From IMG/VR virus record IMGVR_UViG_3300048011_000030, positions 1 through 58,131 of that record: a stretch of DNA of 58,131 nucleotides; one strand, given 5' to 3'. Below, one piece after another: positions 4,988 through 57,483 of the stretch (positions within the stretch are counted from its first letter, which is position 1; each line of letters begins with the position of its first letter). The notes beneath the pieces are model-generated. The model had not been told where the DNA came from, ran no database searches, and saw only the letters and a list, made by a program, of their open reading frames with translations. The stretch is from a virus. Made by a program: the position numbers and the translations under genes.

Positions 4988-5041
4988 ATGGCTATTCAAA
5001 ATAACATTGCAGAATGCAACAGCCGTTTAACAATTCTCTAA
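4988..5041 (+). CDS. Possible 17-aa micro-gene
   Basis: A 17-codon frame preceded by a good ribosome binding site (AAAGGAG, 10 bases upstream) in the gap after the DUF6447-like gene. Its stop lies inside the phage promoter at 5033. The translation (MAIQNNIAECNSRLTIL) has no recognisable motif. It may be a genuine micro-protein, a translated leader or a chance frame. Confidence 0.3.
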   Translation: MAIQNNIAECNSRLTIL

Positions 5042-5055
5042 GTTCCTTATAGGGG
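5033..5055 (+). promoter_or_regulatory. Putative phage RNA polymerase promoter upstream of nrdJ
   Basis: Contains ATTCTCTAAGTTCCTTATAG followed by GGG, one of five copies of a motif with an invariant TAAGTTCCTTATAG core. The end of the motif resembles the T7 promoter initiation region (CTATAGGG), so G5052 is the predicted first transcribed base. It drives the ribonucleotide reductase and probably the tail genes downstream. The use by the T7-like polymerase encoded at 26845-29139 is inferred. Confidence 0.75.
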
Positions 5056-15188: not shown

Positions 15189-18100
15189 ATGATCGATAAA
15201 ACAGATCCAACTAATAGGGATACTGTACCTGCGATGCTAACACCTGGGGAATTTGTCCTCAACAAGGAAGCATCAACTATGTTTGCTCCTGTGATAGAGC
15301 AAATGAATGCCGCAGGTTTACAGCATCGTGCAATAAAAAACATGGGTGGTGGTATTCCAACTTATAATAAGGGTGGTGATGTTAAACCCTCTCTTCAGCA
15401 AGGTATCGCAGAGGCAGCTGCAGCCCTTGGGGTAGATCCTATAGATCTTGCAACAATTATATCCTATGAAACTGCAGGTACCTTAAGTCCAACTCAAAAA
15501 GGACCTACTACAAAATGGGGGCAGCATCGTGGATATATTCAGTTTGGTGAACCTCAAGCTAAAGAGTATGGGGTAGACTTCTCCTCTGAAGATAGTGCTA
15601 TGTCATCTCAGCTTGGAGCAAATGGTGCTATCGTTAAGTACTTCAAGGCTCATGGGTTTGAACCAGGGATGGGTCTTATGGATCTATACTCTATTGTAAA
15701 TGCTGGTGGTCCTGGGAGGTACAATTGGTCTGATGAAAAGGCTGGTGGTGCTAAGGGTACTGTGGCTGATAAAGTAATTAAACAGATGCCGGCCCATAGG
15801 GATAAGGCAATTAAACTCTTAGGTGTTAACTTTGCACCTGAAACATCTGTTCGTCCACAATCTCGTGGAGATGTTCCTCCCCAAGCAACACCACAACTCA
15901 CAGCCCAAGCAAATCCAATTGCTGTTGAACAGGCAATCATGCAAGCTAGTGTACCACAGGTACAAGCAGCACCCCCAGTACCTACAGACTTCGGTGAAGC
16001 CTTCAAAGACGCACGAGCTGACATGGGAGCGGGAGGTACCTTTACCTTTCGTGGTCGTGATTATACTACTGATTATGTTGAAGAAAAAGATAAGACGATG
16101 ACTGCTAACATGGGTGGTTCTGTTTATCTCAATATGGGAGGTTACCCACAAGAGCACTTAGATAATTATCGTAAAGCTATAATGGCTAACATGGGTCCGG
16201 AGTACTTGGCTAGAATAGCGGAAACGGTAAGCATGGACGCTGCTCGTGAACTACAAGCGCAAGTTCGTCCAGACTATACACCAGGTAATGTAGACTATAC
16301 ACCAGGTAATGTAGAGGGAAACTTTGATTCATCTCAGTATAACGATCCTGCCTTTAAACTTAGATCAGATGGTATGATTGATTTAAGAGGCTCGGGAGGC
16401 TCAGATCGAAGGCTAGATAAAAAATTATATTTATCACAACCTAACACTGGTATGACAACAGAAGAAGCTATGGCTAAGCGTAAGAACCTTGCGTCTAATA
16501 GTTATGTACCGATGCCAGAAGTGAACAGTGATGACCCAGTTACCAACCCTTCTTCTGGATTTGGAAGCAGCCTTGAGTACAACTATGACACTTACTTAAA
16601 AGAGATGGGATATAATGATGTCCCTGCTGTTCGTGAGATGTGGAGGCGTTACCAGGATAAGATGAATGCAAAGTCAGCAGAGGTTCCAATGCCAGAAGTG
16701 AACAGTGATGAGTCATTACTTCAAGGTTCTTCCGGAAGCGTTGCGAGTGCTGCTCGTTCTTTCCCAAGTGACTACCCAATTAATATGGATGTCCCAAGGG
16801 TTGAAGGCTACAACATTCCAGCCCCTATCCCAGCCCCTAGACCAACCATGATCGGTGGTCAGTTGTACTATTTGAATGGTGATGGTCTTGTTACAGATTC
16901 AAATGGTAACCCTGTTCAAGACCCTGAGATTGGTGCTGCTGTTCAAAATAAACTTAACTATAGCCCAGAGGAATCTGCTGCTAATGCACAAGCATACAAC
17001 GAATCTATGGCTGAGCAGGCGGTATTTAATGGTGTTGCTCCACAGTCAGTGAATCCAAGCTATGATTCAATGCGTCAACAGCAAGAGTCTAATGCTGCTG
17101 AGGCAGAAAGGATTAGAGCGGAGGTTGCACAGACTGATATGGAACGTCAGGCTCTTAATGACGAGTTTAACAATAGAGGACCAGTAGTTGATTACAATAT
17201 CCCAGCTTCTATGCAGGATGCTGGTAGGATGATGGCTAACAATGTACCTATGGGGGATGGTGTTCCTAGAACAGCTGCAAGCAGTATACCAAAACCTAGT
17301 ATTAATTACTCTGGTATTTCTTTTGATGCTCTTGTAACACTTGCAAACGATGGTGATGAAAAGGCGCAAGATGAGCTGGTTCAAAGAAACGATCAAGCTA
17401 ATCTGAATGATATAGCGGTAGATGATCGTCGAAGTCGTGGGTATAGTGTGCTTACTGAAACCCCCATTGATCCTAACAGACCTCAAATAACTGGAGATTT
17501 ATCCCCAAGTGTCTACTCCGAATCTCAACAGTTGGGTATCCCTATTCCACAAGGTGTTGATTTTAATTATGAGGGTCCGGCATCTGGTGTAAGTTCACAC
17601 ACACAAGCCCTAGAAGTATTGAAGACTCCTAGCCTCCCAGAAGACGATTACGTTAAAGCAAACGAAGCTCTTAGCACACCTGATACAGTGGTTACTCCAG
17701 TAAGTCCCGACACTTTTGATCCAAGAGGTGAAGGAACTGGTCGGCAAAAATTCGCAGCTGCCTCAAAAGTTGAAGGTATAATTAATAACTTGCCTGAAGA
17801 CGATAAGAAAACCTCTAAGGACCAAGACCTTGCTGCTAAGGAAGCTGCTGCTGCAGAAGAGGCGCGCCTTACCCAAGCAGGTGGTGGTGATGCTAAAAAC
17901 ACACCTGAAGTTAAAGGGGCTATGTCTGCAATTAAAAGCATGTTTGGAGATCTGTTTGACACTAAAGAACTTGCAAGGGCTGCTATCCTATATCTAGGTG
18001 GTCGTGCTACTGGTCTTAATGGTAATCAAGCCCTTGCTTTTGCTGGTAAGAACTACCTGGCTAGGGTTGATGCTAAAGAGGGTACATACCAGAAGATCGC

Positions 18101-18968
18101 TCTTGAAGGTAAGCATACTAAAGATAGTTTAGCTGTCTATAAGAAGACCATGAATCCTGCAGACCTTGTAGCTAAAGGTCAACCTCCCATTGAAACAGGT
18201 GAGTATAAGGATTTGTATCATACCAAGTCAGGTACTCCTGTTAAGTTGATTGAAAAAGAAACATCTACTGGTAGAAAACTGTATTACTATAAAGGTGAGC
18301 AAGTAGATCTTAATGATTTTACAGCCGATGGTAGATACTCTGTTGGATCTAAAGATCATGATATATATGTTGGTCAGCTTGAAAGTGCTGTTATCTCCCA
18401 AGTTAAGGAGCTACAGGGAATCAACATGACCGATAGTGATTCTGATGGTAAAGGCTCTAAACCTATAATCGGCATCACACCAACAGGTGTTGCCACACAA
18501 GCAGCTAAGTATGTTATTAAGAATCAACTCCCTCGTGAAGTAATGCGGGATCTTGTCAGCATTGCATATCAAGATGCTGTGGCAGAGAAAATGTCAACAG
18601 GTAAGACACCCCCTTCTTTGGAACCATTCTTTGAAAGGGCTTATGTTAAAAGTAGAACAAGCAATGTTGTTAATTTTACATTGGGTAATGGTAAACCTGC
18701 ACCCGCTGCAAGTGTGAATCAATTCTTTAGGACTATCAGAGACATGGCAACTGCTGCTGAACAGGTGGAAAACCCTGACTTTAAATTATCTAGTCTTAAT
18801 GACACTCAACTTTCAACTTGGTTGTTGCAGTCCAAAACATACACAAGCTGGAATCAAATTACAGACCCTGAAGAAAAGAAATTCTTTGTTGATAGGGGTG
18901 CTAAGGAAGTTCCACCCCGTAGTGGATTCATGCAGTATGTCTTAGAAGGCTACCCCAAAACATCCTAA
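15189..18968 (+). CDS. Giant internal virion protein with transglycosylase-like domain (1259 aa)
   Basis: Opens with DTVPAMLTPGEFVLNKEA, a motif found in large phage tail and tape-measure-type proteins. Residues about 75-170 resemble a lytic transglycosylase or muramidase: ISYETAGT holds the candidate catalytic E94, followed by RGYIQFG. This would open peptidoglycan locally during DNA ejection, like T7 gp16. The remainder is long, polar and mostly helical, with short repeats (VPMPEVNSD occurs twice) and a DYTPGNV tandem duplication near 16270-16312. It follows the 496-aa protein by one base. No free endolysin is recognised in the window, which makes this domain notable. Confidence 0.65.
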   Translation: MIDKTDPTNRDTVPAMLTPGEFVLNKEASTMFAPVIEQMNAAGLQHRAIKNMGGGIPTYNKGGDVKPSLQQGIAEAAAALGVDPIDLATIISYETAGTLSPTQKGPTTKWGQHRGYIQFGEPQAKEYGVDFSSEDSAMSSQLGANGAIVKYFKAHGFEPGMGLMDLYSIVNAGGPGRYNWSDEKAGGAKGTVADKVIKQMPAHRDKAIKLLGVNFAPETSVRPQSRGDVPPQATPQLTAQANPIAVEQAIMQASVPQVQAAPPVPTDFGEAFKDARADMGAGGTFTFRGRDYTTDYVEEKDKTMTANMGGSVYLNMGGYPQEHLDNYRKAIMANMGPEYLARIAETVSMDAARELQAQVRPDYTPGNVDYTPGNVEGNFDSSQYNDPAFKLRSDGMIDLRGSGGSDRRLDKKLYLSQPNTGMTTEEAMAKRKNLASNSYVPMPEVNSDDPVTNPSSGFGSSLEYNYDTYLKEMGYNDVPAVREMWRRYQDKMNAKSAEVPMPEVNSDESLLQGSSGSVASAARSFPSDYPINMDVPRVEGYNIPAPIPAPRPTMIGGQLYYLNGDGLVTDSNGNPVQDPEIGAAVQNKLNYSPEESAANAQAYNESMAEQAVFNGVAPQSVNPSYDSMRQQQESNAAEAERIRAEVAQTDMERQALNDEFNNRGPVVDYNIPASMQDAGRMMANNVPMGDGVPRTAASSIPKPSINYSGISFDALVTLANDGDEKAQDELVQRNDQANLNDIAVDDRRSRGYSVLTETPIDPNRPQITGDLSPSVYSESQQLGIPIPQGVDFNYEGPASGVSSHTQALEVLKTPSLPEDDYVKANEALSTPDTVVTPVSPDTFDPRGEGTGRQKFAAASKVEGIINNLPEDDKKTSKDQDLAAKEAAAAEEARLTQAGGGDAKNTPEVKGAMSAIKSMFGDLFDTKELARAAILYLGGRATGLNGNQALAFAGKNYLARVDAKEGTYQKIALEGKHTKDSLAVYKKTMNPADLVAKGQPPIETGEYKDLYHTKSGTPVKLIEKETSTGRKLYYYKGEQVDLNDFTADGRYSVGSKDHDIYVGQLESAVISQVKELQGINMTDSDSDGKGSKPIIGITPTGVATQAAKYVIKNQLPREVMRDLVSIAYQDAVAEKMSTGKTPPSLEPFFERAYVKSRTSNVVNFTLGNGKPAPAASVNQFFRTIRDMATAAEQVENPDFKLSSLNDTQLSTWLLQSKTYTSWNQITDPEEKKFFVDRGAKEVPPRSGFMQYVLEGYPKTS

Positions 18969-19013: not shown

Positions 19014-22000
19014 ATGGGAATATTAGATGATATTAATGCTTATAAACCTACTACTCTAGCAGGTACTAATAAACATTTTATCGATGGTGATTCATTGGAT
19101 AACCCAGATGGTCCCAACTATCGTATCGCTGGTTATGATTCCGCTGAGGTTTCTAAGTTGATAGGTAACAGAGTAATTGAAGGTACTGCAGGTGGTAATG
19201 CATCTGCAGAAATAACTGCTCGACTTGCAAACGAACAGGGGTTCACTAATATTGTGCCCCTGTTCAACCCCGATGGGTCTCGTATGATGGACTCAGGTGG
19301 TGGTCGCCAAATGGTTGATCTTGTCAATGAGAATGGGGAAAGTTTTTCAAGATCTATGATATCATCAGGTGCAGGTAATATAACAACCTATGCTACAGAT
19401 TCAGATGTACTTGCTAAGTCTATAGCTGAAGCTGAAAGAAATGAAGCTTTCAGGAAAGGAGATTACGAACCTTCTGCATTTGATCAAGCAGCCTATGCTA
19501 TTAAATCAGCTGAGTTATATGAGGGTGCTAAATCCTTAGGACTTAAGCAGACATTGTTTGATGAACAAGAAAGAGCTTCTTACATTAATTACTTTATGAA
19601 TCAGGGGATGTCTAGGGAAGCTGCTACAAACGAGATGAATAATTACTTTACTCGTGATGTTCAGCTTCGTAAACCAGGTGTATCACTTGACAACAAATCT
19701 CTTAACCCTGTCAGCGACTCTTGGGAACAAGGTTGGATCAGTGTAGGTGAAAGTGCCTATGGTGTTGCTAACTTAGTTGGTTCCTCTACTGGTGCTGAGG
19801 GTCTTGAGAGATGGGGTGAGGATGGTGTACGTAGGCAGCAAGGTAAGCTGGCTGAGTATGGGTACACGATTAACAACTATAAAGATGTTGACAGTATTGG
19901 GTCTGCCCTTGAGTACCTTGGGAGCACAATGGCCCTGTCATTACCCTACATGGCAATCACTGCTGGTTCTGCTATCGCTGGGACTGTAGCTGCCCCTGTC
20001 ATAGGAGCCACTGCTGCTGTCGCAGGTGCTGTAGCTATCCCCTCATTCATGTATGCGGGTCAAACCTGGAACGACATGGAAGGTGATAACGACAGTAAGT
20101 CTGCTACCATTGCTATTGGTTCTGGCATTGCTCAAGCTGTACTTGATCGCTTAGGTCTCAAAGGTATCGGTGGTATTGCTAAAAATCCAATACAAACTAT
20201 TAGAGATGATATTCCAAAAGCACTTGCCAAGGCTCGTAACATAAGCCTGTCAGAAGCTAAGTTGATTGTTAAGCAGGAAGCAGACTTTGCTATTGGGCAG
20301 TTTGCAAATGAAGCACAGAAGATTGCTAAGGCTCAACTGACAGCCAAGCAGACTTCTATGAGAGCCTTAGGAAGTGTGGGTGTTGGCTCAGTGTCTGAGG
20401 GACTGACTGAGGTTGGTCAAGAAGCTATCGGTTATCTTGCTGCTGTTCAAGGTTCGGATAAAGTATTTGACTACGAAGAGTTTCAAGAACGTTTAGCTAA
20501 TGCTGCTGTTGCTGGCACTGCCTTGGGTGGTGCCTTTTCTATTCCTGGTACAGTTAAAGATCAGATAACTTGGATGGATGCAGCTGCTCGTTTCGGAGAA
20601 CCCATACCTCAAGCAGACATTGAAAGATATGTGGAGGAAGAGAAGGCAGCTCACGGCGGGATTGTAAGGACTGTACCCCAACTCTTGACAGATGTTCAGA
20701 AAGAGGTGGATGCCTCTGATGATCTTGGTTTTAACATCAATGAGAGAGAAACTGAACACAAACAAACAACTGGTCAGAAAACATTTATGGAACGTGCATC
20801 TACGTCTGTGATGAATGTGTCTAACCTTTGGCAAGCTGCTGTTACAAATGCAATTCCAAAAGCTACGCTAGATAAGTCTAAGTCTGCTCGTGCATTGGCA
20901 TCTATCTTAGGTGGCACACTGACCCCTTTGCATGGTGGTTCTGGTATTGAAGCTGCACAACACCACCTTGTTACTTACTATAAGAACCAAGTGCATGACC
21001 CAAAAGTTTTCTATAAGAACATGGGGCTGAAGTCTTTAGCTGGTGTGTTTAAGGCTTCTGATAGGGCAAGGATAAGTGACTTAACTTACAAAGCCCTTAG
21101 GGCTGCTATTGATAAGCGTGGTAACTTCAATAAGAATCTTGTACCAAAGGACACCCCTAATAGGCAGATGATTGTTGATTTAGGTAATCAACTCATGGGT
21201 CTTGGTCAGGAGCTTCGTCAAAACCAACTAGATGCTGGTGCTGATTTGGGAAATATTAAAGCTTACCTTCTTAAGTACAAGTCAATTGATAAGACTGCTG
21301 TGTCTAAGAACCCAGAGATGTTTACAAACCTCTTGGTGTCTGAGTATAAGATCAGCCGTGCAGAAGCTTTAAGGATTACAGATGAGATCAGGGACAACCC
21401 AAACGTTTACGATCTAGACTCTGCAGATGCTATCATAAGTAATGTAGGATCTCTCAACCCACCATCACACAAGAGTAGGAAGTTTGGTCTATCTCAAAAT
21501 GAAAAGTTTGATCAGTTCTATGAGAAAGATATCTTCGCTAACGTTGCTAATGCAAGTAAGACTGCAGCTCGTTATGTAACTCAGATGAAGTATGTTGGTA
21601 AGGATGGGGAGATTGTATCTAAACTCTTGAATAACATGCAAGCTGAGGGTGTGTCCAATGAAGAGGTTAATCGTGTAGCTTCTGAGGTTAAGAATATCTT
21701 AGAGGCTGTGTCAGGTAACTACAACAGGCCGACTACTCAAGCTGGTAAGAAGCTTATGCGGTTCCAGAAGAATGTAATGTTCTGGATGACCCTATCTGCA
21801 CTACCACTTGCAACATTCTCCTCATTACCTGAAATGGCTATGACACAGGGTGCCCTTACTCGTGATCAAATCTTTGGTAAGAATGGAAGTATTAAAAACA
21901 TTGCACAAGAAGCAGTGTCTGGTTTACTACCCCAGCTTAGGAAGGTTGAAGCAAGCACTGAAGATAGAATACTCCGACAGAATACTGGGAGTGAGGGTCA

Positions 22001-23027
22001 GAAGTTGCTTCGAGAAACTGGTTTCTACGCTTGGGAAGTAGGTGCTGCAACAACCACAGGTGTCAGTGAGGTTTCAGACAGTCGTAAGAATGTTATGGAA
22101 GCTTTCTTTAGGGCTATTGGTTTGACCCAATGGACTGACTATACTCGTGCTGTTCGTGCAAGTATGGCCTATGACTTCATATCTATTAACTCTAAGATAG
22201 TATTTCAAAGAGACTCAGGATTAACACCTGATACTCGTGAGGCTCAGGAGGCAGAGCAAAAGCTGAGAAGCTTAGGGATACCTGTAGAACAGTTCGTACC
22301 TCTCAATAGTAGAATTGAAAGGGCTGGACCTGAGGGTCTTAGAGATCCTAGGTCTATGGATCTCTGGAATCAAACAATGAAGGAAGCTACCTACAACTTT
22401 ATCAACCAAGCAGTAGCCCTACCAAGTGCAGCCAATCGTCCTTTGATCTATCAGGATCCTAGGTTGGCTTTGTTCACACAGTTCCAAGGTTTTATCTCTA
22501 CCTTTACAGCAAACCATATACCTCGGATGTGGAATGACTACATTAAACGTGGTACTCCAGCAATGAAGTACAACACCTTTGTACTTATGTCTACTATGAT
22601 TGCCCTAGGATTCTTCTCACAGGCAATGAAAGACGAAATCAAGTTTGAAGATGATGATGATGAAGGTACACTGGGTAATCCATATCTGGACACACCTGAG
22701 TATGTTCGTCGTGGTGTCATGGCTTCTGGTTTGTTTGGTACAGGTGAGCGAGTCATTGATATGTTTGCACCTATCTATGGTCAACGTACTGATGGTATTG
22801 GTGGTTGGTTATACAATCAAGCCACAGGCGAAAGCCCCACAGTTGGTTACGTTGGCAGGCTTGGTGATGCAACTTTGAATGTAGCTAAGGGTGACTTTGA
22901 ACGTGCTGTGTATCAGGGTTTGAAATCAGCCCCTGGGATTGGTCCCTTTACAGACACAAACAAAAGCCTAGCTAGTCTTCTAACTGGTGGTGGTTGGAAC
23001 TATAAAGACAATAAGGAGAATCAGTAA
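19014..23027 (+). CDS. Giant internal virion protein with nuclease-like N terminus (1337 aa)
   Basis: Residues about 20-130 (IDGDSL, then YRIAGYDSAEV) resemble the staphylococcal nuclease fold, in which DGD and the downstream G-x-D-x-x-E pattern bind calcium. Catalytic competence is uncertain. A hydrophobic block at about residues 305-350 (MAITAGSAIAGTVAAPVIG) may cross membrane. The rest is helical and polar, with an apolar stretch near residue 925 and a very acidic DDDDEG segment near residue 1215. Size and position match T7 gp15/gp16-like ejection proteins. A strong AAGGAGA site precedes the ATG. The stop overlaps the ATG of the polymerase-like gene. Confidence 0.6.
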   Translation: MGILDDINAYKPTTLAGTNKHFIDGDSLDNPDGPNYRIAGYDSAEVSKLIGNRVIEGTAGGNASAEITARLANEQGFTNIVPLFNPDGSRMMDSGGGRQMVDLVNENGESFSRSMISSGAGNITTYATDSDVLAKSIAEAERNEAFRKGDYEPSAFDQAAYAIKSAELYEGAKSLGLKQTLFDEQERASYINYFMNQGMSREAATNEMNNYFTRDVQLRKPGVSLDNKSLNPVSDSWEQGWISVGESAYGVANLVGSSTGAEGLERWGEDGVRRQQGKLAEYGYTINNYKDVDSIGSALEYLGSTMALSLPYMAITAGSAIAGTVAAPVIGATAAVAGAVAIPSFMYAGQTWNDMEGDNDSKSATIAIGSGIAQAVLDRLGLKGIGGIAKNPIQTIRDDIPKALAKARNISLSEAKLIVKQEADFAIGQFANEAQKIAKAQLTAKQTSMRALGSVGVGSVSEGLTEVGQEAIGYLAAVQGSDKVFDYEEFQERLANAAVAGTALGGAFSIPGTVKDQITWMDAAARFGEPIPQADIERYVEEEKAAHGGIVRTVPQLLTDVQKEVDASDDLGFNINERETEHKQTTGQKTFMERASTSVMNVSNLWQAAVTNAIPKATLDKSKSARALASILGGTLTPLHGGSGIEAAQHHLVTYYKNQVHDPKVFYKNMGLKSLAGVFKASDRARISDLTYKALRAAIDKRGNFNKNLVPKDTPNRQMIVDLGNQLMGLGQELRQNQLDAGADLGNIKAYLLKYKSIDKTAVSKNPEMFTNLLVSEYKISRAEALRITDEIRDNPNVYDLDSADAIISNVGSLNPPSHKSRKFGLSQNEKFDQFYEKDIFANVANASKTAARYVTQMKYVGKDGEIVSKLLNNMQAEGVSNEEVNRVASEVKNILEAVSGNYNRPTTQAGKKLMRFQKNVMFWMTLSALPLATFSSLPEMAMTQGALTRDQIFGKNGSIKNIAQEAVSGLLPQLRKVEASTEDRILRQNTGSEGQKLLRETGFYAWEVGAATTTGVSEVSDSRKNVMEAFFRAIGLTQWTDYTRAVRASMAYDFISINSKIVFQRDSGLTPDTREAQEAEQKLRSLGIPVEQFVPLNSRIERAGPEGLRDPRSMDLWNQTMKEATYNFINQAVALPSAANRPLIYQDPRLALFTQFQGFISTFTANHIPRMWNDYIKRGTPAMKYNTFVLMSTMIALGFFSQAMKDEIKFEDDDDEGTLGNPYLDTPEYVRRGVMASGLFGTGERVIDMFAPIYGQRTDGIGGWLYNQATGESPTVGYVGRLGDATLNVAKGDFERAVYQGLKSAPGIGPFTDTNKSLASLLTGGGWNYKDNKENQ

Positions 23028-26000
23028 TGGCTATACCAGTGATTAAAGGGGGGAGTGCTGAGCTCCCCTCTCAGACTTTAGAAGATCGATTTGCTACAAC
23101 TGAGCAGGTACCCCCACAACAGGAAGAACCTGCACCACAATCAACAGGTATCCTACAGGACATTGCTAACACCACCCCAGAACAGATTGCAGCAATCACA
23201 CAGGTGGATGCATCTGAGTTAACACCTGATTTAATTATCCCAGAACAACAGGGGAATGATAACAGGTTCTTGGTACCTGATATGGCTACTCGTGCTAAGA
23301 CAGACAACCAAAGGTACAATAGGATCACACCTGTTCAACTCCCAAAGGTAACTGTTGCAGCACAATCTGAAGCTGGTGGTAATCTTAGATCTCGTGCAAA
23401 GACTTTGGTTCAGAATGTAAACTCTGGTAATCTTGGGTTAAACCTTACAGGTCTTGGTACCCCAGCCTACGCATTAACCAAAGGTGATTCACCTGTTTCA
23501 GGACCAGCACTTGCGGATGCTATCGCTGAATCTTCTGAAGGTAACATTGTAGCTGCTATCAGTAGGGCTGATGCAATTGTAGAATCTGAGGGTGGTATGA
23601 AGATACCTAACCCAATGTACACACAGATTGCCTCTGCTATCATTGAAGATACTTTTGGTGGTAACTTGGACAACACCCTTGATCCTCTTGCAGAGGCAAT
23701 GGGAGATCCATCTGTCCCTGTGGAAAGCCCAAACAAAACACTCACACACGCTGAGGGTAACGCACAGATAGGTAACAGGATACATCTTGAGTACCAGCGT
23801 AGGAAGAGGCAGGCCATGATAAGTCAGGGTGCTCCTGAGGCTGACCCTCAAGTTCAAGCATTGGCATCTCCAGATAAACTACCACGTAAGGAAGCGGAGA
23901 CACTGGGGGCTGCGTTCAAGCAGTTGTGGGCAGACTCTAACCCAACACTTGTCACACGAGCTGTTGATCCAAAGACCCGTCAGATAGTGTATGGTCTAAC
24001 TGCAGAAGGTGAAGCCGCTATTAAAGAGGGTGAGCTTGATCGTAAACAGATATTTCCCCGTCAGATAGTACGCCCTCAGAAAGTACCTAACCAAATGGCT
24101 GGTACTGATGTTGGTAAGAACGTAGTTCGAGCAGTGTCTGGTGGTAAGTCTGGTCAGAAGATGGGTCGGATAATAAACCAAGCTATTGATAACTTAGGTC
24201 AGGTTGGACATGTAGTCGATAAACAACGCATGAAGATTCTGTACTCTACGGTCTTGGCTACACTAGCAACCAATGATCATGAGACTTGGCAGGCTGAGAT
24301 CAACAATGTTGGTCAGTCTAGGATGGATAGATTCAATGCTGCTGCTAAGATGCAGGAGCGTAAGCTTGCAAATAATCCAGAGCTTAGAGAAGAACTCTAT
24401 AGCCCAAAGGAAAATATCAACAACTTGTTTGATAAACTAGCACAGGAAGTGCAGTCACTAGCACAGGAACGCAATGGTATCAACTACCTTACCTATAATG
24501 TTCAGGGTTTCCAAGGGAGGTTGACACCTCAGCAATCCTACTTTAACCCAGTGACATCTAAGGCTGTTCGGTTTGCCACAAGATCACCTAACCCATCTAT
24601 CATTAGACCTGGGAACAGGCAAGAGAAGAACTTGCGTCAGATGTATGCCATGATCCTGTTGTCTAAAGTTAAAGACTCTCAAGGTAATACAATTACAGAT
24701 GCTGGTGATACCTTCTTACCTGCCCAAAGGGAAGTGTTGCTCAAGGCTAGGGAGTCTGAGCTATATGGTTATGGTAAGCGGCTTGCACAAGCACTGGAGA
24801 TGACTGATGCACAGTATGAAGCTGTGTCTGAGGCTATTGCTAATGGTGTTCCCTTAGACTCTCCACAGTTCCCACAGTTTAATCAACTTAGTCTTGATCC
24901 GAATAGTGATTATGACAGTATGATTATTAAGATGATCAAGGACAAGGGGGAAGATGGTCTACTGCTAATGGATACGTTAATAGACTTCTCTAAGTACGTT
25001 GACTTTAAAAGGAACTACCCTAACGACAAGCAGTTCATTAGCTATGTCAATGCTTACATGGATGGTAAGACTAATGGTCCTGCGAGTCAGGGTATGCAGA
25101 TGGGTGAGATACCAACAGCTTTCTTAACTGGTGTTCTCAGAGCAAAAGGTAACAGGTCAACCCTCTTAGATGATGGTGACATACGCGATAAGCTTATGGG
25201 ATTAGCTAATCAGAGTATAGAAAGTGGTTGGGAAAACATCAGTGAGGATCTATTTCCACAACTGAATGATGTTGCTCGTGCTGTATTCAGTAACAGGGAT
25301 CTAGCTAAGCTGACTATCATGACCTATGGTTATGGTAAGGAGATGGAAAGTTTTGTAACTGACATTGAAGAAGTGTTGGAAGTTTTAAATGAAGAACTAA
25401 TAAAAGACTCTGAAAGTTCTTATGGCCCCAGTCTTTCTATTATAGACTCCACTATGTCACGTAGAGATTTAGCTAAGGTTCTCTTAGAGAAATACAAAGG
25501 ATCTATTGAAGGTGTTATGACCGCTGACTCAATAGAGTCTAGATCTATCATGAGGGCTGCTGCTGCACTTCACGCTGCTATGAATGAGCCTTTCATCATC
25601 AAAGGTCCAACGGGGATGGACATCCATATTGGTGGTGAATCCTCTACAGGTTATGATGCAGCATCTAAAAGTACCTATAAGAGCAGATCTCCTGAGACTG
25701 GTGAGATGGTTAAGACAACTGTTGCACACTATGAGACTGAGACTACGGCTGCTGCTACTCGTAATAGAACAAACCCAGATGGTACCATTGAAGGTACTCC
25801 TGGTGAGTTTGCTTATGGTGGATCTGTTGTTGCCCCTATTCAAGCTGTTGATGCTGCCACCGTAGCAATGACTGCCTCTGGTAAGTCTTGGGACAGGGCA
25901 GGCAAAGCATCCAATGGAAACCCATTCCTCTTAACTATCTACGATGCTTTTAAAGTAGATGCTAATGGTTATGATGTATTCCTAGAGGAGATTAATCTCA

Positions 26001-26527
26001 ACTGGATGGATGCAACCCTTGACTGGAGCTATTTAGAACAAGCACGTAACTCCTTGACTGAGGCGACTAAGCGTTTTGAAGAGAAGATGAAAGGTAGGGC
26101 GCCTGGTGACAAGCTCACAGATAATGAGAAGGTCTATATGGATTGGATGCTTAAGGTATCCCCTGCTGCCAGTGGTAATATGTACATGGCTAATCTTTGG
26201 GGACGCATGAGTAAACTAACAGGTACTGCTGGGAAGGTCAGGACAGAAGAGCAACTCCAAGAAGATCGTGTTCGCATGTCTAGGGTAATGGCTGCGGAGA
26301 TGAAGAAGGTGGGGTATGATCCATATAACCCGCCATCTGAGCCCACTGTCAATCAGCTCAAGACCTTTAAGGGTCTTCTTCGGAATGAGTTAAACTTACA
26401 TTCTAGGTTGCCAGATGTTATTAAAAGAACTAATAGCAACAAGTCAGCCCTTAAAAAAGAGCTGCTTATGAATGGATACAAAACCGAAAGCGGTAGACGT
26501 ATTCCACTGCAATACTACGCACACTAA
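23027..26527 (+). CDS. Probable virion-associated single-subunit RNA polymerase (1166 aa)
   Basis: All four hallmarks of the T7/N4 polymerase family occur in order. A GFQGR motif ends at R498 and is followed by FNP, like T7 DWRGR...FNP. Motif A is MDGKTNGPASQ with D679. Motif B is KLTIMTYGYG with K761, M765, T766, Y769 and G770, in the exact spacing of T7 K631-G640. Motif C is TIYDAF with D973, preceded by QAVDAAT (D942). The first 480 residues are unassigned and Pro/Gln-rich at the start. The gene ends the internal virion protein operon, overlapping the previous stop, so the protein is probably packaged and ejected, like N4 vRNAP. It is distinct from the T7-like polymerase at 26845-29139. 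Confidence 0.75.
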   Translation: MAIPVIKGGSAELPSQTLEDRFATTEQVPPQQEEPAPQSTGILQDIANTTPEQIAAITQVDASELTPDLIIPEQQGNDNRFLVPDMATRAKTDNQRYNRITPVQLPKVTVAAQSEAGGNLRSRAKTLVQNVNSGNLGLNLTGLGTPAYALTKGDSPVSGPALADAIAESSEGNIVAAISRADAIVESEGGMKIPNPMYTQIASAIIEDTFGGNLDNTLDPLAEAMGDPSVPVESPNKTLTHAEGNAQIGNRIHLEYQRRKRQAMISQGAPEADPQVQALASPDKLPRKEAETLGAAFKQLWADSNPTLVTRAVDPKTRQIVYGLTAEGEAAIKEGELDRKQIFPRQIVRPQKVPNQMAGTDVGKNVVRAVSGGKSGQKMGRIINQAIDNLGQVGHVVDKQRMKILYSTVLATLATNDHETWQAEINNVGQSRMDRFNAAAKMQERKLANNPELREELYSPKENINNLFDKLAQEVQSLAQERNGINYLTYNVQGFQGRLTPQQSYFNPVTSKAVRFATRSPNPSIIRPGNRQEKNLRQMYAMILLSKVKDSQGNTITDAGDTFLPAQREVLLKARESELYGYGKRLAQALEMTDAQYEAVSEAIANGVPLDSPQFPQFNQLSLDPNSDYDSMIIKMIKDKGEDGLLLMDTLIDFSKYVDFKRNYPNDKQFISYVNAYMDGKTNGPASQGMQMGEIPTAFLTGVLRAKGNRSTLLDDGDIRDKLMGLANQSIESGWENISEDLFPQLNDVARAVFSNRDLAKLTIMTYGYGKEMESFVTDIEEVLEVLNEELIKDSESSYGPSLSIIDSTMSRRDLAKVLLEKYKGSIEGVMTADSIESRSIMRAAAALHAAMNEPFIIKGPTGMDIHIGGESSTGYDAASKSTYKSRSPETGEMVKTTVAHYETETTAAATRNRTNPDGTIEGTPGEFAYGGSVVAPIQAVDAATVAMTASGKSWDRAGKASNGNPFLLTIYDAFKVDANGYDVFLEEINLNWMDATLDWSYLEQARNSLTEATKRFEEKMKGRAPGDKLTDNEKVYMDWMLKVSPAASGNMYMANLWGRMSKLTGTAGKVRTEEQLQEDRVRMSRVMAAEMKKVGYDPYNPPSEPTVNQLKTFKGLLRNELNLHSRLPDVIKRTNSNKSALKKELLMNGYKTESGRRIPLQYYAH

Positions 26528-26535
26528 AAAAAAAT

Positions 26536-26578
26536 AAGGCCCCCAAGAGAACCATTACGGTTTTCCTGGGGGCCTTTT
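26536..26578. terminator. Bidirectional terminator between the two polymerase genes
   Basis: AAGGCCCCCA (26536-26545) pairs with TGGGGGCCTT (26567-26576), enclosing a second helix formed by GAGAACC and GGTTTTC. A T-run follows on the + strand, and nine A bases precede the stem, giving a T-run on the - strand. It separates the converging virion-module and replication-module transcripts. Confidence 0.9.
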
Positions 26579-26582
26579 AATT

Positions 26583-26864
26583 TTATTTAAGCATACCTTT
26601 CTTTGCAAGGAGCTCTCGGTACTCCTTCATTTGGTCTTGCTTACGCTGTCGTGCTTCTTTATCATTGATCACACCACCCTCTAGATCTTCTGCAATACCA
26701 ATGTCCATGACACGTGGCATAAGATCCTTTGTATAAGCCAGCTCTAAATCTAAAGATGTCTTTGTTAGTGGGTTAGTGTTCCAATCAGAGATGAACTCAT
26801 CGTCATCTACTTGAACACCTCGTAGTGCTAAATGATTATATGATTTACGCGAAGAAGTAGTCAC
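26583..26864 (-). CDS. Small hypothetical protein after the RNA polymerase (93 aa)
   Basis: The last gene of the leftward operon. The GTG at 26864 is chosen because an AAGGAG site, lying inside the end of the polymerase gene, stands 10 bases upstream; a TTG at 26873 is possible but too close to it. The gene overlaps the polymerase by 20 bases. The product is charged and ends in a Lys/Arg/Gln-rich helix (KEARQRKQDQMKEYRELL). No family is recognised. Coupling to the polymerase suggests a partner or regulator, but this is only positional. Confidence 0.65.
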   Translation of the reverse strand: MTTSSRKSYNHLALRGVQVDDDEFISDWNTNPLTKTSLDLELAYTKDLMPRVMDIGIAEDLEGGVINDKEARQRKQDQMKEYRELLAKKGMLK

Positions 26865-29139
26865 TGTTTTCAATCTCCTTTATATCTAAGCTGCCCAATG
26901 TAGGTTGTTCCACATCATCTTCAGCATCTGTAATGAAGTTACGTATAACCTCAAAGTAATTATCGTAGTCGTACATGCGTATGAATACTTGTTTGGTTAG
27001 GTCGAGTAGTTTATCTACATCACAGGCATGAGTACTGAAGCTATCATGCACAGCTGCAAAGGAACCATCCCACTCAGAGATAACCAAAGCCATATGACTA
27101 GCATCCATAGAGTGTATGTAGTTAGGTGACATACCACAGATGAAACCTCTCCTGTCTGGCATACGTGTAGGTACAAGGGCTACGTGTGTAACCTGACCTG
27201 TCTTATTTCCATAGCCTTTGATGCGTCCCCTAGCTTTTCTATCTTGCATAATCCATTTCTCATAGATCACATGGAACCCTGATGGTGTACTCCATTCAAC
27301 CTTATCCTTACCCTTACCATGCTTTAGACTTGTGGTGAACTGTTTAAGTTTAACCACAACATCGTTAAGCTCATAGAGATCTTCATCAGTCTTGAAGTTC
27401 TTCTTCATTAATGTATCACGTATCTTAGACAGGCTACGATATTCAGTGTTGGCTTCGTATCCATCTGAGTCTACCTTTATGTGTGTACCTAATTGATACA
27501 TAGCTAGGTTCTGTAGGTAACTCATAGTAGATAGTGGGCCTGGACATACCTTATCAATTGCTTTGATCAGTAGTTTAGATAGCTTAGTACAGTCGTCCTG
27601 TGTGATATCATACTCTGTGTGGTAGTCCTCTGACTTACAATCGAAGAACATGTTCTCAGCGATCTTCTTAGAGCCTGCTGAGTATGCCCTAGTCATGGAG
27701 CCACGCTTAGATATACCCTTACGTATACTCTTCATAGGCATACTAGACAGTATCCCATTAAGTCTATCATCTTTACACAGATTAATCATTTCTTTAGCTG
27801 TTTGCACATAGAAGTCTTTCTGTATCTCTGAGGGTATTAGACCAACCAACTCACCAGTTTGTTCGTCCTTAGAGATTGCTCCTAGGTGTTGCCAACCATT
27901 GTTACTCCCATCAATAGGGATAGGTAGGCTAGTCATGTGGATACGATTGTCTCTGTAAGCACAATCAAATTCATACCACTCAACACAAGCAGCAAGGAAG
28001 GATACTTTCTTCTCAGCTTGACCAGAGAACTGTGAGTTCTTACCAGCCTCTATGATCTCATCCATGTACTCATTGGTCCAGATGATACGATCTTCTAGGG
28101 TCATCTTGTCAACAGAGATGTTGTCTAACCCTTCACTCTCAAGGTGTTCTTTGTAATCAGATGTACACCAATCAGGTATCTCATCGATGTTGTAGGACAT
28201 GTTGAAGACAGACGCTGTGTGTATAGCTAACCACTGTAACCCACTTTCAGTCATGGGCTTTGAGTGTTGGAACTTAAACAAGCCCCTAGCTAGATCAGAT
28301 CCTTGGAAGTTCATAAAGCTCTCACAGTAGTAGAACCTACCACGATAGTCTACATCCAGGTACTGATAGAAAGCATCTAGCTCTGATAGCTTACGTGCCT
28401 TCTCTGATATGAATGCCCACTCAACCATCTTACTCCTACGCTTGAGTTCTTTAGCATCATTGTCCTTGATAGGATCAGTAGATAGGAACAACTCTTTGTT
28501 CTCAATCATTGCATTGTAGACTGGTTTGTTTATCTTCCAAGCAGTCTGCTGAAGTTTGTTAAGGGCTTGTACCCAAGGTGCATAGGGGTCTATTGGATCA
28601 CCCTCCACCCTACCTTTGATCACTGGCCTGTGTACTCCATTGATCTGTTGTATCATACCAGATATATCTTTCGGTCGTATGATACTGGTAGAGGCTAAGG
28701 GGAAACTCCCACCTCTCTCAGGTATCACACCTAACTCATACCATCTATGAGATGCAGACACCACATGGCAGCTGTTACGGGTCTTAGCATAGGACAAGTC
28801 GATAAACCCCAGGTTGTATAGGGCTTCTATGAACAGGTCTCCTATGGACACTACAGAGCCCCAGGGAAGGGGCTCTCTATCTAGTTCTTTACCCACACTC
28901 TGACCTATCTTACTAGATGCATTAGTGAGTGTGGTTGTACCAGCTGGGCTTGAGCTGGTATCCTTAGTGAATTGCATTTGAAGTATGGAGATACTCTTAA
29001 CAACGTACCCTTCCATACGTTCATTATAGTTTCCAGACAATCTCATCAAGAGCCCAGCAAGGTGGGGTCTTCGACGTGCGGGACTCACACCATCTACCCT
29101 TTCGACAAGGTAATCAACTATCTCTTGGAGTGCTGACAT
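26845..29139 (-). CDS. T7-like DNA-dependent RNA polymerase (764 aa)
   Basis: Transcribes phage genes from phage-specific promoters. The family motifs are DVDYRGR, motif A IPIDGSNNGWQHL with D410, motif B KRGSMTRAY with K478 and Y486, and motif C VHDSFST with D699, preceded by YIHSMDASHM. At 764 residues it is about 120 shorter than T7 polymerase, mainly in the N-terminal domain that binds promoters and T7 lysozyme. The start has AGGAGA. It is near the end of the leftward early operon, so it would appear after the replication proteins, and it faces the virion polymerase gene tail to tail. It is the likely user of the five TAAGTTCCTTATAG promoters. Confidence 0.95.
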   Translation of the reverse strand: MSALQEIVDYLVERVDGVSPARRRPHLAGLLMRLSGNYNERMEGYVVKSISILQMQFTKDTSSSPAGTTTLTNASSKIGQSVGKELDREPLPWGSVVSIGDLFIEALYNLGFIDLSYAKTRNSCHVVSASHRWYELGVIPERGGSFPLASTSIIRPKDISGMIQQINGVHRPVIKGRVEGDPIDPYAPWVQALNKLQQTAWKINKPVYNAMIENKELFLSTDPIKDNDAKELKRRSKMVEWAFISEKARKLSELDAFYQYLDVDYRGRFYYCESFMNFQGSDLARGLFKFQHSKPMTESGLQWLAIHTASVFNMSYNIDEIPDWCTSDYKEHLESEGLDNISVDKMTLEDRIIWTNEYMDEIIEAGKNSQFSGQAEKKVSFLAACVEWYEFDCAYRDNRIHMTSLPIPIDGSNNGWQHLGAISKDEQTGELVGLIPSEIQKDFYVQTAKEMINLCKDDRLNGILSSMPMKSIRKGISKRGSMTRAYSAGSKKIAENMFFDCKSEDYHTEYDITQDDCTKLSKLLIKAIDKVCPGPLSTMSYLQNLAMYQLGTHIKVDSDGYEANTEYRSLSKIRDTLMKKNFKTDEDLYELNDVVVKLKQFTTSLKHGKGKDKVEWSTPSGFHVIYEKWIMQDRKARGRIKGYGNKTGQVTHVALVPTRMPDRRGFICGMSPNYIHSMDASHMALVISEWDGSFAAVHDSFSTHACDVDKLLDLTKQVFIRMYDYDNYFEVIRNFITDAEDDVEQPTLGSLDIKEIENSDYFFA

Positions 29140-36051: not shown

Positions 36052-36074
36052 TTTCTTTAAGTTCCTTATAGAGA
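36052..36074 (+). promoter_or_regulatory. Putative phage promoter for the small terminase gene
   Basis: Contains TTTCTTTAAGTTCCTTATAG followed by AGA, with the invariant TAAGTTCCTTATAG core shared by four other sites. G36071 is the predicted start of RNA. It points away from the surrounding leftward genes and toward the single + strand gene at 36146. A 7-bp hairpin (36074-36091) begins 4 bases into the predicted transcript. Confidence 0.75.
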
Positions 36075-36145: not shown

Positions 36146-36538
36146 ATGACTAGAGAGGTTCATCCAAACAGCCTTAAGAATTTAGCACCTTCATTCACCA
36201 AAGACAATGCTCGTGAGATGCAATTAAAATCTGCAGCTTCCCGTAAGGCAGCTAGAGATGCTAGAGAAGCTTTGAAGATGAGTATGAAAGATTGGCGTCA
36301 GTACAAGGAAGATGTGCTAGATCATATTGATATGAACTCTCTTGATGTCTTGAAGATCCTTATGTTCAAAGCTTTGGACAAAGAAGATTTTGATACAGCT
36401 AGTGATCTCGCAGCAAAAGTTGCAGAGTATGAGCAACCCAAACTACAGCGCAGGGAACTCCAAATTGAGGAGATAGGTGCTGAGAGTTTGTCTGATGAAG
36501 AACTCGACGATAAGATACGAGCACTGCGGATAGTGTGA
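36146..36538 (+). CDS. Probable terminase small subunit (130 aa)
   Basis: The N terminus, HPNSLKNLAPSFTKDNARE, is typical of small terminase subunits and is followed by a Lys/Arg/Ala-rich helix and an acidic C terminus (SDEELDDKIRALRIV). This protein recognises phage DNA and guides the large subunit (42395-44047) in packaging. It stands alone on the + strand inside the leftward block, with its own promoter (36052), a ribosome binding site AAGAGGT and a terminator (36632). The separation of the two terminase genes by about 6 kb is unusual. Confidence 0.65.
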   Translation: MTREVHPNSLKNLAPSFTKDNAREMQLKSAASRKAARDAREALKMSMKDWRQYKEDVLDHIDMNSLDVLKILMFKALDKEDFDTASDLAAKVAEYEQPKLQRRELQIEEIGAESLSDEELDDKIRALRIV

Positions 36539-36568: not shown

Positions 36569-36627
36569 GTGCGCTTTGTCGGTTATCTAAAAAAACAAGT
36601 AAGTGCGCTTTGTCGGTTATCTAAAAA
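36569..36627. repeat. Tandem 25-bp repeat after the small terminase gene
   Basis: GTGCGCTTTGTCGG followed by TTATCTAAAAA occurs exactly twice, at 36569-36593 and 36603-36627, a 34-bp period with a 9-bp spacer. A shortened relative (GCTTTGTCGG) is at 39369-39378, at the edge of the structured region. Possible protein-binding or priming sites; no coding role is visible. Confidence 0.8.
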
Positions 36628-41837: not shown

Positions 41838-42348
41838 GTAGAGTATCGATAGATCTATAAGAACCCAAGAGATACACATAGCTTGGTCTTATCTGAGAGT
41901 ATGCTGAGAGATACTGAGAGAGTATTGAGAGATGCTGAGAGATCTATAAGAGACTGAGAGATCTTATAGTATAGGTATATATATAGTAACCTAAGGGAGG
42001 GACTGGATAGCTTCTCCCTATAAGGAACTTAGAGAATGTTACACCATCCCCCCACAGTCTCTCACAGAATCCCACACAATCCCACAGTCCCGCTAGATCC
42101 TATGCCACAAGAGACTCTCAGAGAGCCTCACAGAACCTATAGAGGGCTCAGAGTACTCACAGTACCTAAGAGATAGACACCTACCTGAGAGAGCCTCTGA
42201 GAGATCTAGGGGGGTACTAAAAAACTATGAGGGTACCTGATAAAAAAAGTACTTATTAGGCTCTCTTTCTCAAAGACCCTCTATAAACCTCACAGGGGTA
42301 CCTCAATCTCTCACAGAACCCCCACATAATCTAAAAATAATATAGATA
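41838..42348. other. Divergent intergenic region with GAGA-type repeats, possible origin
   Basis: No supported gene lies between 41738 and 42394. The left part (41893-41971) has about seven imperfect copies of CTGAGAGAT or TGAGAGAK. An AT-rich run (41965-41988, TATATATATAG) follows, then short inverted repeats such as GAGTACTC and AGTACCT. CTCACAGAA occurs three times (near 42060, 42128 and 42310). Divergent promoters flank it at 42013 and 42349. This is a candidate replication origin and transcription control region; this is inference only. Confidence 0.5.
42013..42037 (-). promoter_or_regulatory. Putative leftward phage promoter
   Basis: On the - strand it reads ATTCTCTAAGTTCCTTATAG then GGAGA, so its end, TATAGGGAGA, is identical to the T7 promoter start region. 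G42018 is the predicted first base. The only one of five copies that points left. It would allow the T7-like polymerase to sustain early gene transcription, including its own gene. The predicted RNA begins with GGGAG, which can pair with CTCCC 14 bases later. Confidence 0.8.
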
Positions 42349-42371
42349 TATTTCTAAGTTCCTTATAGGGA
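42349..42371 (+). promoter_or_regulatory. Putative rightward phage promoter for packaging genes
   Basis: Contains TTTCTAAGTTCCTTATAG followed by GGA. Predicted first base G42368. It stands 27 bases before the large terminase ATG and starts the rightward late block. Confidence 0.78.
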
Positions 42372-44164: not shown

Positions 44165-44187
44165 ATTCTCTAAGTTCCTTATAGAGA
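44165..44187 (+). promoter_or_regulatory. Putative phage promoter for the head gene block
   Basis: Contains ATTCTCTAAGTTCCTTATAG followed by AGA. Predicted first base G44184. A short hairpin, GAAT pairing with ATTC, starts 2 bases in. It precedes the 88-aa gene, the portal and the head genes. Confidence 0.78.
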
Positions 44188-53643: not shown

Positions 53644-56600
53644 ATGGGATTTAGAGATTCAGATAATATAATTGAACCTGTTGACAACGGCAATGTCTTT
53701 GATCTGGCAGAACCTATTGATGATGGTAACGTTTTTGATACAGACACCGGAGCTACTGCTATATCTTCTACCAGCGAAGCTGCTGCCAGTGCCTTCGCTG
53801 CAGCAAACGCCGCAGATGGGGTTACTTTAAGTGAAACCAATGCTGCTGCAAGTGCCGCGGCGGCTGCAATAAGCGAAGCTAATGCTTCCACCTCGGAAAA
53901 CAATTCATCAACCTCAGAGAGCAATGCAGCTACTTCAGAGACAAACGCGGCTACTTCTGCAGCCAATGCTTCAACTTCAGAGACTAATTCTGCCAGCTCT
54001 GCTTTAGCTGCAGCTAGTTCTGAGAGTAACGCGGCTACTTCTGCTACAGCTTCCGCTAACTCTGCTACTGCCTCTGCCAACTCTGCTTCTTTAGCTTCAA
54101 CTTCAGAATCTAACGCAGCTACTTCTGAATCTAACGCTAGCTCTTTTGCACAAAGCGCTTTATCTTCTTTAACTTCTGTTACAAATATATTTGATAGCTT
54201 TGACGACAGGTACTTAGGATCTAAAACAAGTGACCCCACATTAGATAACGATGGTAACACCTTAATTATTGGAACTATTTACTGGAACTCTACTGAAGGG
54301 GAACTTAAATTTTATAATGGTACTATTTGGGAAGCCCCCAGTGCAGCTGCTGCTACCAGTGCAACTAACGCTGCTACGTCAGAATCTAACGCAGCTACTT
54401 CAGCTACCGCTTCTGCTACCAGCGCTACTGCCTCTGAGACATCTAACGTTGCCAGTAATACTGCTAAACTAGCTGCTCAAGCGGCACAAACCGCAGCAGA
54501 GTTAGCGGAGACTAATGCTGAAACAGCTGAGACTAATGCTTCTACTCAAGCAACTAATGCTTCCACTTCAGCAAATAACGCTGCTACGTCAGAATCTAAC
54601 GCAGCTACTTCAGCTACAGCTTCTCAAACATCTGCTACAGCATCTCAGGTTTCTCGCTTGGCTGCTGAGACAGCTGAAACTAACGCTGAAACAGCTGAAA
54701 CTAATGCTGCCGCAAGTGAAACTGCTGCTAGCACAAGTGAGACTAATGCAGCAACAAGTGCATCGACTGCTTCTACAGGTGCAACAACAGCTACAACTAA
54801 GGCTAGTGAAGCGGCTACTAGTGCAACCAATGCAGCTACGTCAGAAACTAACGCTGAGACAGCTGAGACCAATGCTGAAACAGCGGAGACTAATGCTTCT
54901 ATCTATGCAACTAACGCTGCTACTTCTGCAACTAACTCAGCAACAAGTGCAACATCTTCTGATACTGCTAGAGCAGCTAGTGTAGTAGCTAAAGTCGCTG
55001 CAGAAACAGCGGAAACTAATGCAGAAACAGCAGAAGCTAATGCTCTTGCTTCTAAAAACGCAGCAGCTACTTCAGCTACGAACTCTGCTAACTCTGCAGC
55101 AGAAGCTTCTACTTCAGAAAATAATGCTGCTGTATCTGCAGCCACTGCTACAACTAAGGCCAGCGAGTCTTCTACTTCAGCTACAGCAGCTGCGGCTTCT
55201 GCTACCTCTGCTTCTGCTTCCAAGGATGCGGCTCTTGCAGCTCTAGACAGTTTTGATGACAGATATCTTGGTCAAAAAAGCTCTGACCCTACAGTAGACA
55301 ATGATGGCGATGCTCTTGTGGCAGGTGCTTTGTATTTTAATACCACTGACTCTGTAATGAAAGTTTACGAAGGTAGTGTTTGGGTTTCAGCTTACACCTC
55401 TTTGTCTGAAGCCTTGTTAATTTCTCAAAACTTATCTGATTTAAATGATATAGCTACTGCAAGAACTAACCTGGGGGTAGAAATTGGAACTGATGTACAA
55501 GCGTACTCCAGTGTACTTGCAGCCACAACTGCATCTTATACTACTGCGATCAATACAAAAATAAATAACATAGAAACTAACGCAGATGTAACTGATGTTA
55601 CTAACGTCACTGCTGCTGGTGCACTGATGGATAGCGAGGTAACTAACCTTGATCAAGTAAAAGCCTTTAATTCCTCAGATTATGTTTCAGTATCTGGCGA
55701 TTCTATAACAGGTAACTTGTCCTTCGGCGACAACGACAAAGCCATCTTCGGCGCTGGGTCTGATTTGCAGATTTACCATGATGGATCGAATAGTTATATC
55801 AAAGATAACGGGACAGGAAACCTCCGAATAAATGCTGGTGAGCTGACACTTACGAATGCAGCCGACAATCAAAATAGAATTGTTACCACGTCTGATGGCA
55901 CTGTTTATCTTTACAACGGGGGTTCAATCAAACTCGCCACCACCAGCACAGGCGTAGACATCACGGGTACTTTGACCAGCGATGGGCTGACTGTGGATGG
56001 GTCAGGGGTGGAAGTTATTTCTGTCAACTCAACACAAAATGGTGCGCAAATTAACTTTGACAGCGCATCAACTTCAGTAGACTGGTCTATTGGTGTATCA
56101 AACAGCGCCGATGGTGACTTTTTAATTTATCAAAGTGGTTCAGGCAGCGGTGACATAAACCTTTACACAGGCGGTTTAAAACGCCAAGAAATAAACCGAA
56201 ACGGCGACATCAGCTTCTACGAGGCCACAGGCACCACGCCAAAGTTCTTCTGGGATGCGGATGCTGAGAGCTTGGGCATTGGGGTTTCTTCTATTAGTAA
56301 TATAGTAGGGACTGGTTATCCACAGCTACAAGTTGGCGGTTCAGTTTCAGGAATTATTGATATAACTTCTGGTTCAAATCTTGGCATAAGAATGTCTGCT
56401 GATGGAAACCTTCCTACTATTGCGTCAAGAACTCAAGGGTGGCCTTTACGCTTCAGCACAACACCAACTGGTGGCTCCGCCACAGAACGTATGCGCATCG
56501 ACAGCAGCGGTAATGTCGGGATTGGGGTGGCTCCTTATAGCTGGTCTAATTTAACAGCACTTCAACTTGAGAGAGCTAGTGTATCAGGCGGTGACCCTGA

Positions 56601-57363: not shown

Positions 57364-57483
57364 ATTTTTAGGGCGTCCCTCCGGGGACGTCCCGCCTAGT
57401 AGGAGATACGAACATGGCAATTAAAATCGCAGGTACTACCGTTATAGACGACAGCCGGAATATTAATATACAAACGGTTCAAG
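57357..57483. repeat. 127-bp exact direct repeat, copy 2
   Basis: Identical to bases 1-127, after which sequence differs. It holds the stem-loop at 57371-57393, the ribosome binding site and the first codons of the gene at 57414. See copy 1 for the interpretation as a circularisation or variant junction. Confidence 0.95.

Follow-up and report, generated by a model that had tools for sequence, protein, structure and literature searches.

A compact relative of the N4 virion RNA polymerase predicted at the end of a virion operon in uncultured phages

INTRODUCTION

Which polymerase transcribes the first genes of a phage when the gene for its T7-like RNA polymerase (RNAP) comes last in an operon that is driven from that enzyme's own promoter? 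The question is raised by a 58,131-nt marine phage sequence (IMG/VR record IMGVR_UViG_3300048011_000030; the whole stretch is hereafter called the window), in which the last gene of an internal virion protein operon was predicted from the letters alone to encode a second single-subunit RNAP of the packaged type. Here, we ask whether this gene specifies such an enzyme, how the enzyme relates to known virion RNAPs (vRNAPs), and what it would do during infection.

Phage N4 carries a vRNAP (gp50) and encodes a heterodimeric RNAPII, both of the T7-like family, and the virion enzyme starts transcription of the second-stage RNAPII (PMC4496689). Since N4 has both polymerases, the suggestion in the original prediction that a two-polymerase combination may be undescribed was too broad. 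What looks new is the compact, stand-alone form of the virion-type RNAP, its occurrence apparently outside Schitoviridae, and its pairing with a single-chain enzyme. In the giant N4 vRNAP, the RNAP core (residues 998 to 2103) is flanked by an N-terminal and a C-terminal domain (PMC12633501; PMC4496689). vRNAPs range from 2842 to 3820 aa, and an IMG/VR survey of N4-like viruses kept vRNAP-like proteins only if they had at least 2500 aa and an ExDGxxxG motif (PMC10654107). Within the literature found, T7-family RNAPs carried in virions are known so far only as giant proteins of N4-like phages, and our search, with most subscription papers beyond reach, returned no description of a compact vRNAP family.

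RESULTS

Fold and invariant residues of a single-subunit RNA polymerase

The gene occupies positions 23027 to 26527 on the plus strand and encodes 1166 residues, of which 1 to 116 are predicted to be disordered and 117 to 1166 folded. Every residue named in the original prediction is present at its place. The first motif, GFQGR, keeps only the GR of the (D/T)xxGR consensus; it ends at R498 (24518 to 24520, plus strand) and is followed by YFNP (F506, N507, P508). Motif A contains the catalytic D679 in MDGKTNGP (25061 to 25063, plus), motif B contributes K761, Y769, and G770 in KLTIMTYGYG (25307 to 25336, plus), and motif C contains the catalytic D973 in TIYDAF (25943 to 25945, plus). These six residues align exactly with R425, D537, K631, Y639, G640, and D812 of the T7-type RNAP (Autographiviridae gp1). 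A further pair, K512 and R515 (24560 to 24571, plus), is the counterpart in profile alignments of N4 K437 and R440, which hold the initiating nucleotide (PMC4496689).

Homologues were gathered by IMG/VR scans with the query and with motif alignments, plus one scan with a protein of Roseobacter phage CRP-7; the most distant share 24% identity with the query. In an alignment of 42 full-length homologues (1116 to 1366 aa; minimum pairwise identity, 22%), 38 of the 1166 columns are invariant. All six catalytic positions fall within these 38 columns, a coincidence with a chance of about 8e-10; K512 and R515 are likewise unchanged in 42/42 proteins.

An AlphaFold (AF2) model built with 11 close sequences had a pLDDT of 44.5 and was set aside in favor of one from a deeper alignment of 25 relatives (pLDDT 78.7; pTM 0.78). 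All 50 matches listed by Foldseek against the PDB are single-subunit RNAPs (probability 1.00; E 8.3e-17 to 1e-12), among them yeast and human mitochondrial RNAP, T7 RNAP, and N4 vRNAP, the last represented by entries 3c3l (mini-vRNAP; E 4.4e-13) and 9pnq (E 7.8e-13). Query-normalized TM-scores range from 0.33 to 0.42, with the N4 entries highest among the matches listed (0.41 to 0.42); such moderate values are expected of a divergent multidomain enzyme. Almost every named match in the Foldseek viral library is a phage RNAP; virion RNAPs are among them, and one gave a TM-score of 0.43. The fold comparison with T7 and N4 polymerases that had been suggested as a check thus yielded, for a predicted model, a match rather than the lack of one. 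By modeled fold and motifs, the protein is a member of the T7-like single-subunit superfamily, with RNA synthesis itself as its predicted activity.

Profile affinity to virion RNA polymerases

The single sequence reveals little of this relationship. Pfam and PDB sequence searches with the protein alone gave no meaningful match, PDB sequence searches that included the family profile returned nothing relevant, and in PHROG the query scored weakly against phrog_414, "RNA polymerase" (E 0.011). Across the family, phrog_414 was matched by 15 of 25 members (best E 3.7e-7), and in a whole-contig search PF00940 was matched directly in one relative, at an E of 6e-6 that is below the curated cut-off.

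Profile-profile comparison was more informative. We compared the compact family by hhalign with profiles of 11 Schitoviridae vRNAP cores and of ten T7-type RNAPs, the E-values being those of single comparisons. The vRNAP profile was matched with 97.2% probability and an E of 3.7e-11 over 580 columns, in an alignment that pairs R498, K512, R515, D679, K761, Y769, and D973 with N4 mini-vRNAP R424, K437, R440, D559, K670, Y678, and D951. The match to T7-type RNAPs was much weaker (E 0.0037), and these enzymes have D where the compact RNAP has K512. The neighboring internal virion protein, used as a negative control, gave a profile-profile E of 0.38. The packaged-type affinity claimed at the outset is therefore borne out at the profile level. 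The T7-type profile scores similarly against the vRNAP profile (E 1.2e-11), and the result for the compact family therefore indicates nearness to vRNAP rather than an established sister relationship. In a 99-site core-motif tree, the compact family and the vRNAPs each form one clean group, and the root cannot be placed because the tree has no independent outgroup. From these sequence comparisons, the kinship is very probably closer to vRNAPs than to T7-type RNAPs.

Could the motifs be a chance resemblance within a large virion protein? The single sequence does lack a significant database match, as such a coincidence would predict; a fold probability of 1.00, the profile E of 3.7e-11, and phrog_414 E-values down to 3.7e-7 tell the opposite story. 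The fold match and profile E-values rule this explanation out for practical purposes, at a residual probability that we regard as negligible, and the gene at 23027 to 26527 almost certainly encodes an RNAP.

A virion operon facing a T7-like RNA polymerase gene

The compact RNAP gene is the last of a rightward operon, and its start overlaps by one base the stop of the preceding gene (junction TAATG). That gene (19014 to 23027, plus) specifies a 1337-aa internal-virion-type protein (phrog_6958, virion structural protein, E 7e-24) and lies directly upstream in all 45 relative loci whose contig reaches that side, always with a short overlap or close spacing. Further upstream in the same operon, a 1259-aa product (15189 to 18968, plus) is a probable virion or ejection protein, as suggested by its position and a weak PHROG hit of tail tape-measure type (E 0.0026).

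Downstream, a strong terminator-like hairpin read from the sequence, GGCCCCCA...TGGGGGCC followed by TTTT (about 26536 to 26576), separates the gene from a convergent one on the minus strand (26845 to 29139). The latter encodes a single-chain T7-like RNAP of 764 aa (PF00940, E 8.6e-56), so the separate T7-like polymerase of the original prediction is real. It was found in 25/25 relative contigs searched whole, and it converges with the compact RNAP gene in 57/57 relative loci, several of which derive from identical or nearly identical viruses. Fold, profile, invariant catalytic set, and gene order agree on a second single-subunit RNAP at the end of the virion-type operon, in contrast to the T7-type RNAP, which shares the fold and does not lie in such an operon. 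The phage genome also encodes a T7-like primase-helicase. Its major capsid protein is SU10-type, its portal is nearest those of CRP-7 and tf/SU10-type phages, and no giant vRNAP, one of the seven hallmark genes of Schitoviridae, was seen in it.

As a separate observation, motif A of the T7-like RNAP gene (DGSNNG|WQHLG) is split in one relative (G007; also in G008) by a group I intron (L185:3760-3966; Rfam RF00028, E 1.3e-25); the gene is uninterrupted in the related locus L070.

Promoters and the order of transcription

A T7-type promoter, TTCTCTAAGTTCCTTATAGGG, occurs in five copies in the window (0.00 expected). One copy lies upstream of the tail and internal-protein genes (5034 to 5054, plus) and another heads the leftward replication operon (42016 to 42036, minus; kept in four aligned genomes), so that both operons are preceded by it. 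The remaining copies stand before the terminase gene (42350 to 42370, plus), before the portal region (44166 to 44186, plus), and before a lone rightward gene (36053 to 36073, plus; also in L005 and L006). Related genomes have their own diverged versions, as expected if a T7-type polymerase and its promoter change together.

The T7-like RNAP gene is the last of the leftward operon that its own promoter heads, and a different polymerase must therefore start its transcription. Designation of the T7-like polymerase as early is doubtful; judged by its promoter set and by the parallel with N4 RNAPII, it more likely has a middle or late role. A conserved single-copy AT-rich element, TTAGGTTACTATATAT (41979 to 41994, minus), also heads the leftward operon; it is identical in four genomes, degenerate in two more, and a candidate early promoter. 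Host RNAP may drive early expression; sigma-70-like sites are not enriched at the leftward operon (23 found versus 26.6 expected), as judged from a consensus scan that is weak evidence. N4-type promoter hairpins upstream of TerL or of the leftward operon were not found above chance: hairpins with a 3-base loop and a perfect stem of 6 bp or more number 0 to 2 per genome, near chance, and shorter or imperfect stems may be present.

The lone rightward gene (36146 to 36538, plus) is embedded in the leftward replication block. Its product is possibly a small terminase, because its weak CRP-7 match adjoins the terminase large subunit. Between convergent genes, a direct repeat, GTGCGCTTTGTCGGTTATCTAAAAA, spans 36569 to 36593 and 36603 to 36627, 34 bases apart; an adjoining hairpin, AGGTTCT-NNN-AGAACCT, keeps its stem in two relatives with changed loops.

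DISCUSSION

Starting from the computed RNAP fold, invariant catalytic set, vRNAP affinity, synteny, and promoters, we propose that the compact RNAP is a free-standing protein homologous to the catalytic part of N4 vRNAP. It would be produced late, alongside the internal virion proteins, and packaged; on infection it would be ejected into the host cell, either before the DNA or together with it. Once inside, it would transcribe the first phage genes, including that for the T7-like RNAP, which would then take over from its own promoters. We consider this sequence-based scheme of packaging, ejection, and early transcription probable as a whole. Packaging is inferred from gene position and homology, and ejection, early transcription, and the promoter used by the compact RNAP are presumed along with it.

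Resemblances to N4 are extensive. Both enzymes have the single-subunit fold, with the GR motif and motifs A, B, and C in register, a DGxTNG motif A, and the equivalent K437/R440 and K512/R515 pairs; as with gp50, the gene is the last of a late virion operon and convergent to replication genes, and both phages have a second T7-family RNAP. The differences are equally clear. With 1166 aa, the compact RNAP has one third the length of gp50 (about 3500 aa) and matches only the mini-vRNAP part (998 to 2103), whereas the N-terminal (about 1000 aa) and C-terminal (about 1400 aa) domains of N4 vRNAP are absent. E557 of N4 motif A is replaced by Y677, a position occupied mostly by Y, by M or T in a small number of homologues, and never by E (42/42); consequently, DGxTNG is present in the family and the E of the vRNAP-defining ExDGxxxG is absent in 42/42 members. 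All full-length compact relatives are far from giant size. N4 RNAPII is a gp15/gp16 heterodimer, whereas the partner of the compact RNAP is a single chain; N4 relies on hairpin promoters with a short stem and a 3-base loop, none of which stood out above chance here; and the capsid and portal resemble those of CRP-7 and SU10/tf-type phages.

Some of these differences weigh against the proposed scheme. The compact RNAP has nothing equivalent to the N4 domains to which encapsidation and injection are ascribed, and a comparison of the 1337-aa neighbor with the gp50 N- and C-terminal domains and with gp51 detected none (E of at least 0.037). The replaced E557 and the lack of 3-base-loop hairpins above chance upstream of the leftward operon point the same way. 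An active RNAP that is made late and stays unpackaged, serving, for example, replication priming or late transcription of part of the genome, would explain both the intact catalytic residues and the missing encapsidation domains. We regard it as unlikely: it leaves unexplained the tight coupling to the internal-virion-type gene in every relative with a contig long enough to include that gene, the phage already has a T7-like primase-helicase and a T7-like RNAP, and the nearest relatives by profile are packaged enzymes.

The other alternative, an ejection protein descended from a vRNAP and now purely structural, fits the location in an ejection-protein operon and gains some appeal from CRP-7, the sole related cultured phage. 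Its gp33 (L011:7860-11567) has the same place, size (1235 aa), and neighbors as the compact RNAP and keeps an IHDA motif C region, but it is only about 18% identical, carries arginine in place of the motif B lysine, and lacks a clear GR motif. Such changes suggest that loss may occur in a sister group. gp33 may be related to the compact RNAP as a degenerate or much changed form, a family relation that draws weak support from sequence (E about 0.15). Catalytic and nucleotide-binding residues are nevertheless invariant in 42 proteins with identities down to 22%, and a structural role for the compact RNAP itself is thus highly improbable. A tblastn search with the compact RNAP and three distant family members against 50,697 cultured phage records gave no match. 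The virion RNAP of phiKZ is multisubunit and not T7-like. The phiKZ-type and P23-45 systems resemble our packaging model in that one RNAP is carried in the virion and a second one is encoded; the tape-measure-fused P23-45 enzyme is homologous to cellular RNAPs and not T7-like (PMC10770324). The CRP-7 paper reports one T7-like RNAP and annotates gp33 as hypothetical (PMC6918029), and a further report concerns other, 30-kb phages (PMC12629253).

The compact family fails both the length (<2500 aa) and the ExDGxxxG filters of the N4-like virus survey (PMC10654107), which is probably why it was missed. We lean towards a broader picture in which a widespread group of uncultured marine phages, classified apart from N4, ejects a naturally occurring "mini-vRNAP" that has only the catalytic core left, with separate ejection proteins providing the packaging and membrane functions of the flanking domains and a single-chain T7-type RNAP acting as the second-stage enzyme. 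If true, virion-carried T7-family transcription would be older or more mobile than Schitoviridae, and a giant protein would be unnecessary for it. A natural vRNAP of core size would make testable both the need for the giant N4 domains and the notion that vRNAP-driven early transcription predates Schitoviridae. Being small, the compact RNAP may also prove useful as a new enzyme for transcription.

Three minor features merit mention. A compact RNAP relative lies on a 10.4-kb contig (L187; DNHN01000098.1) binned in a Bacteroidetes metagenome-assembled genome; this contig is probably phage DNA, and the hint at a Bacteroidetes host is weak. The window ends share an exact 127-bp repeat (1 to 127 and 57357 to 57483) and a second similar stretch (737 to 838 and about 58027 to 58131), both within tail fiber genes, which may reflect an end overlap with variation or a duplicated fiber gene. 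Finally, repeats with a 21-base period run from 53884 to 55181 within a gene for a 1239-aa tail fiber-like protein.
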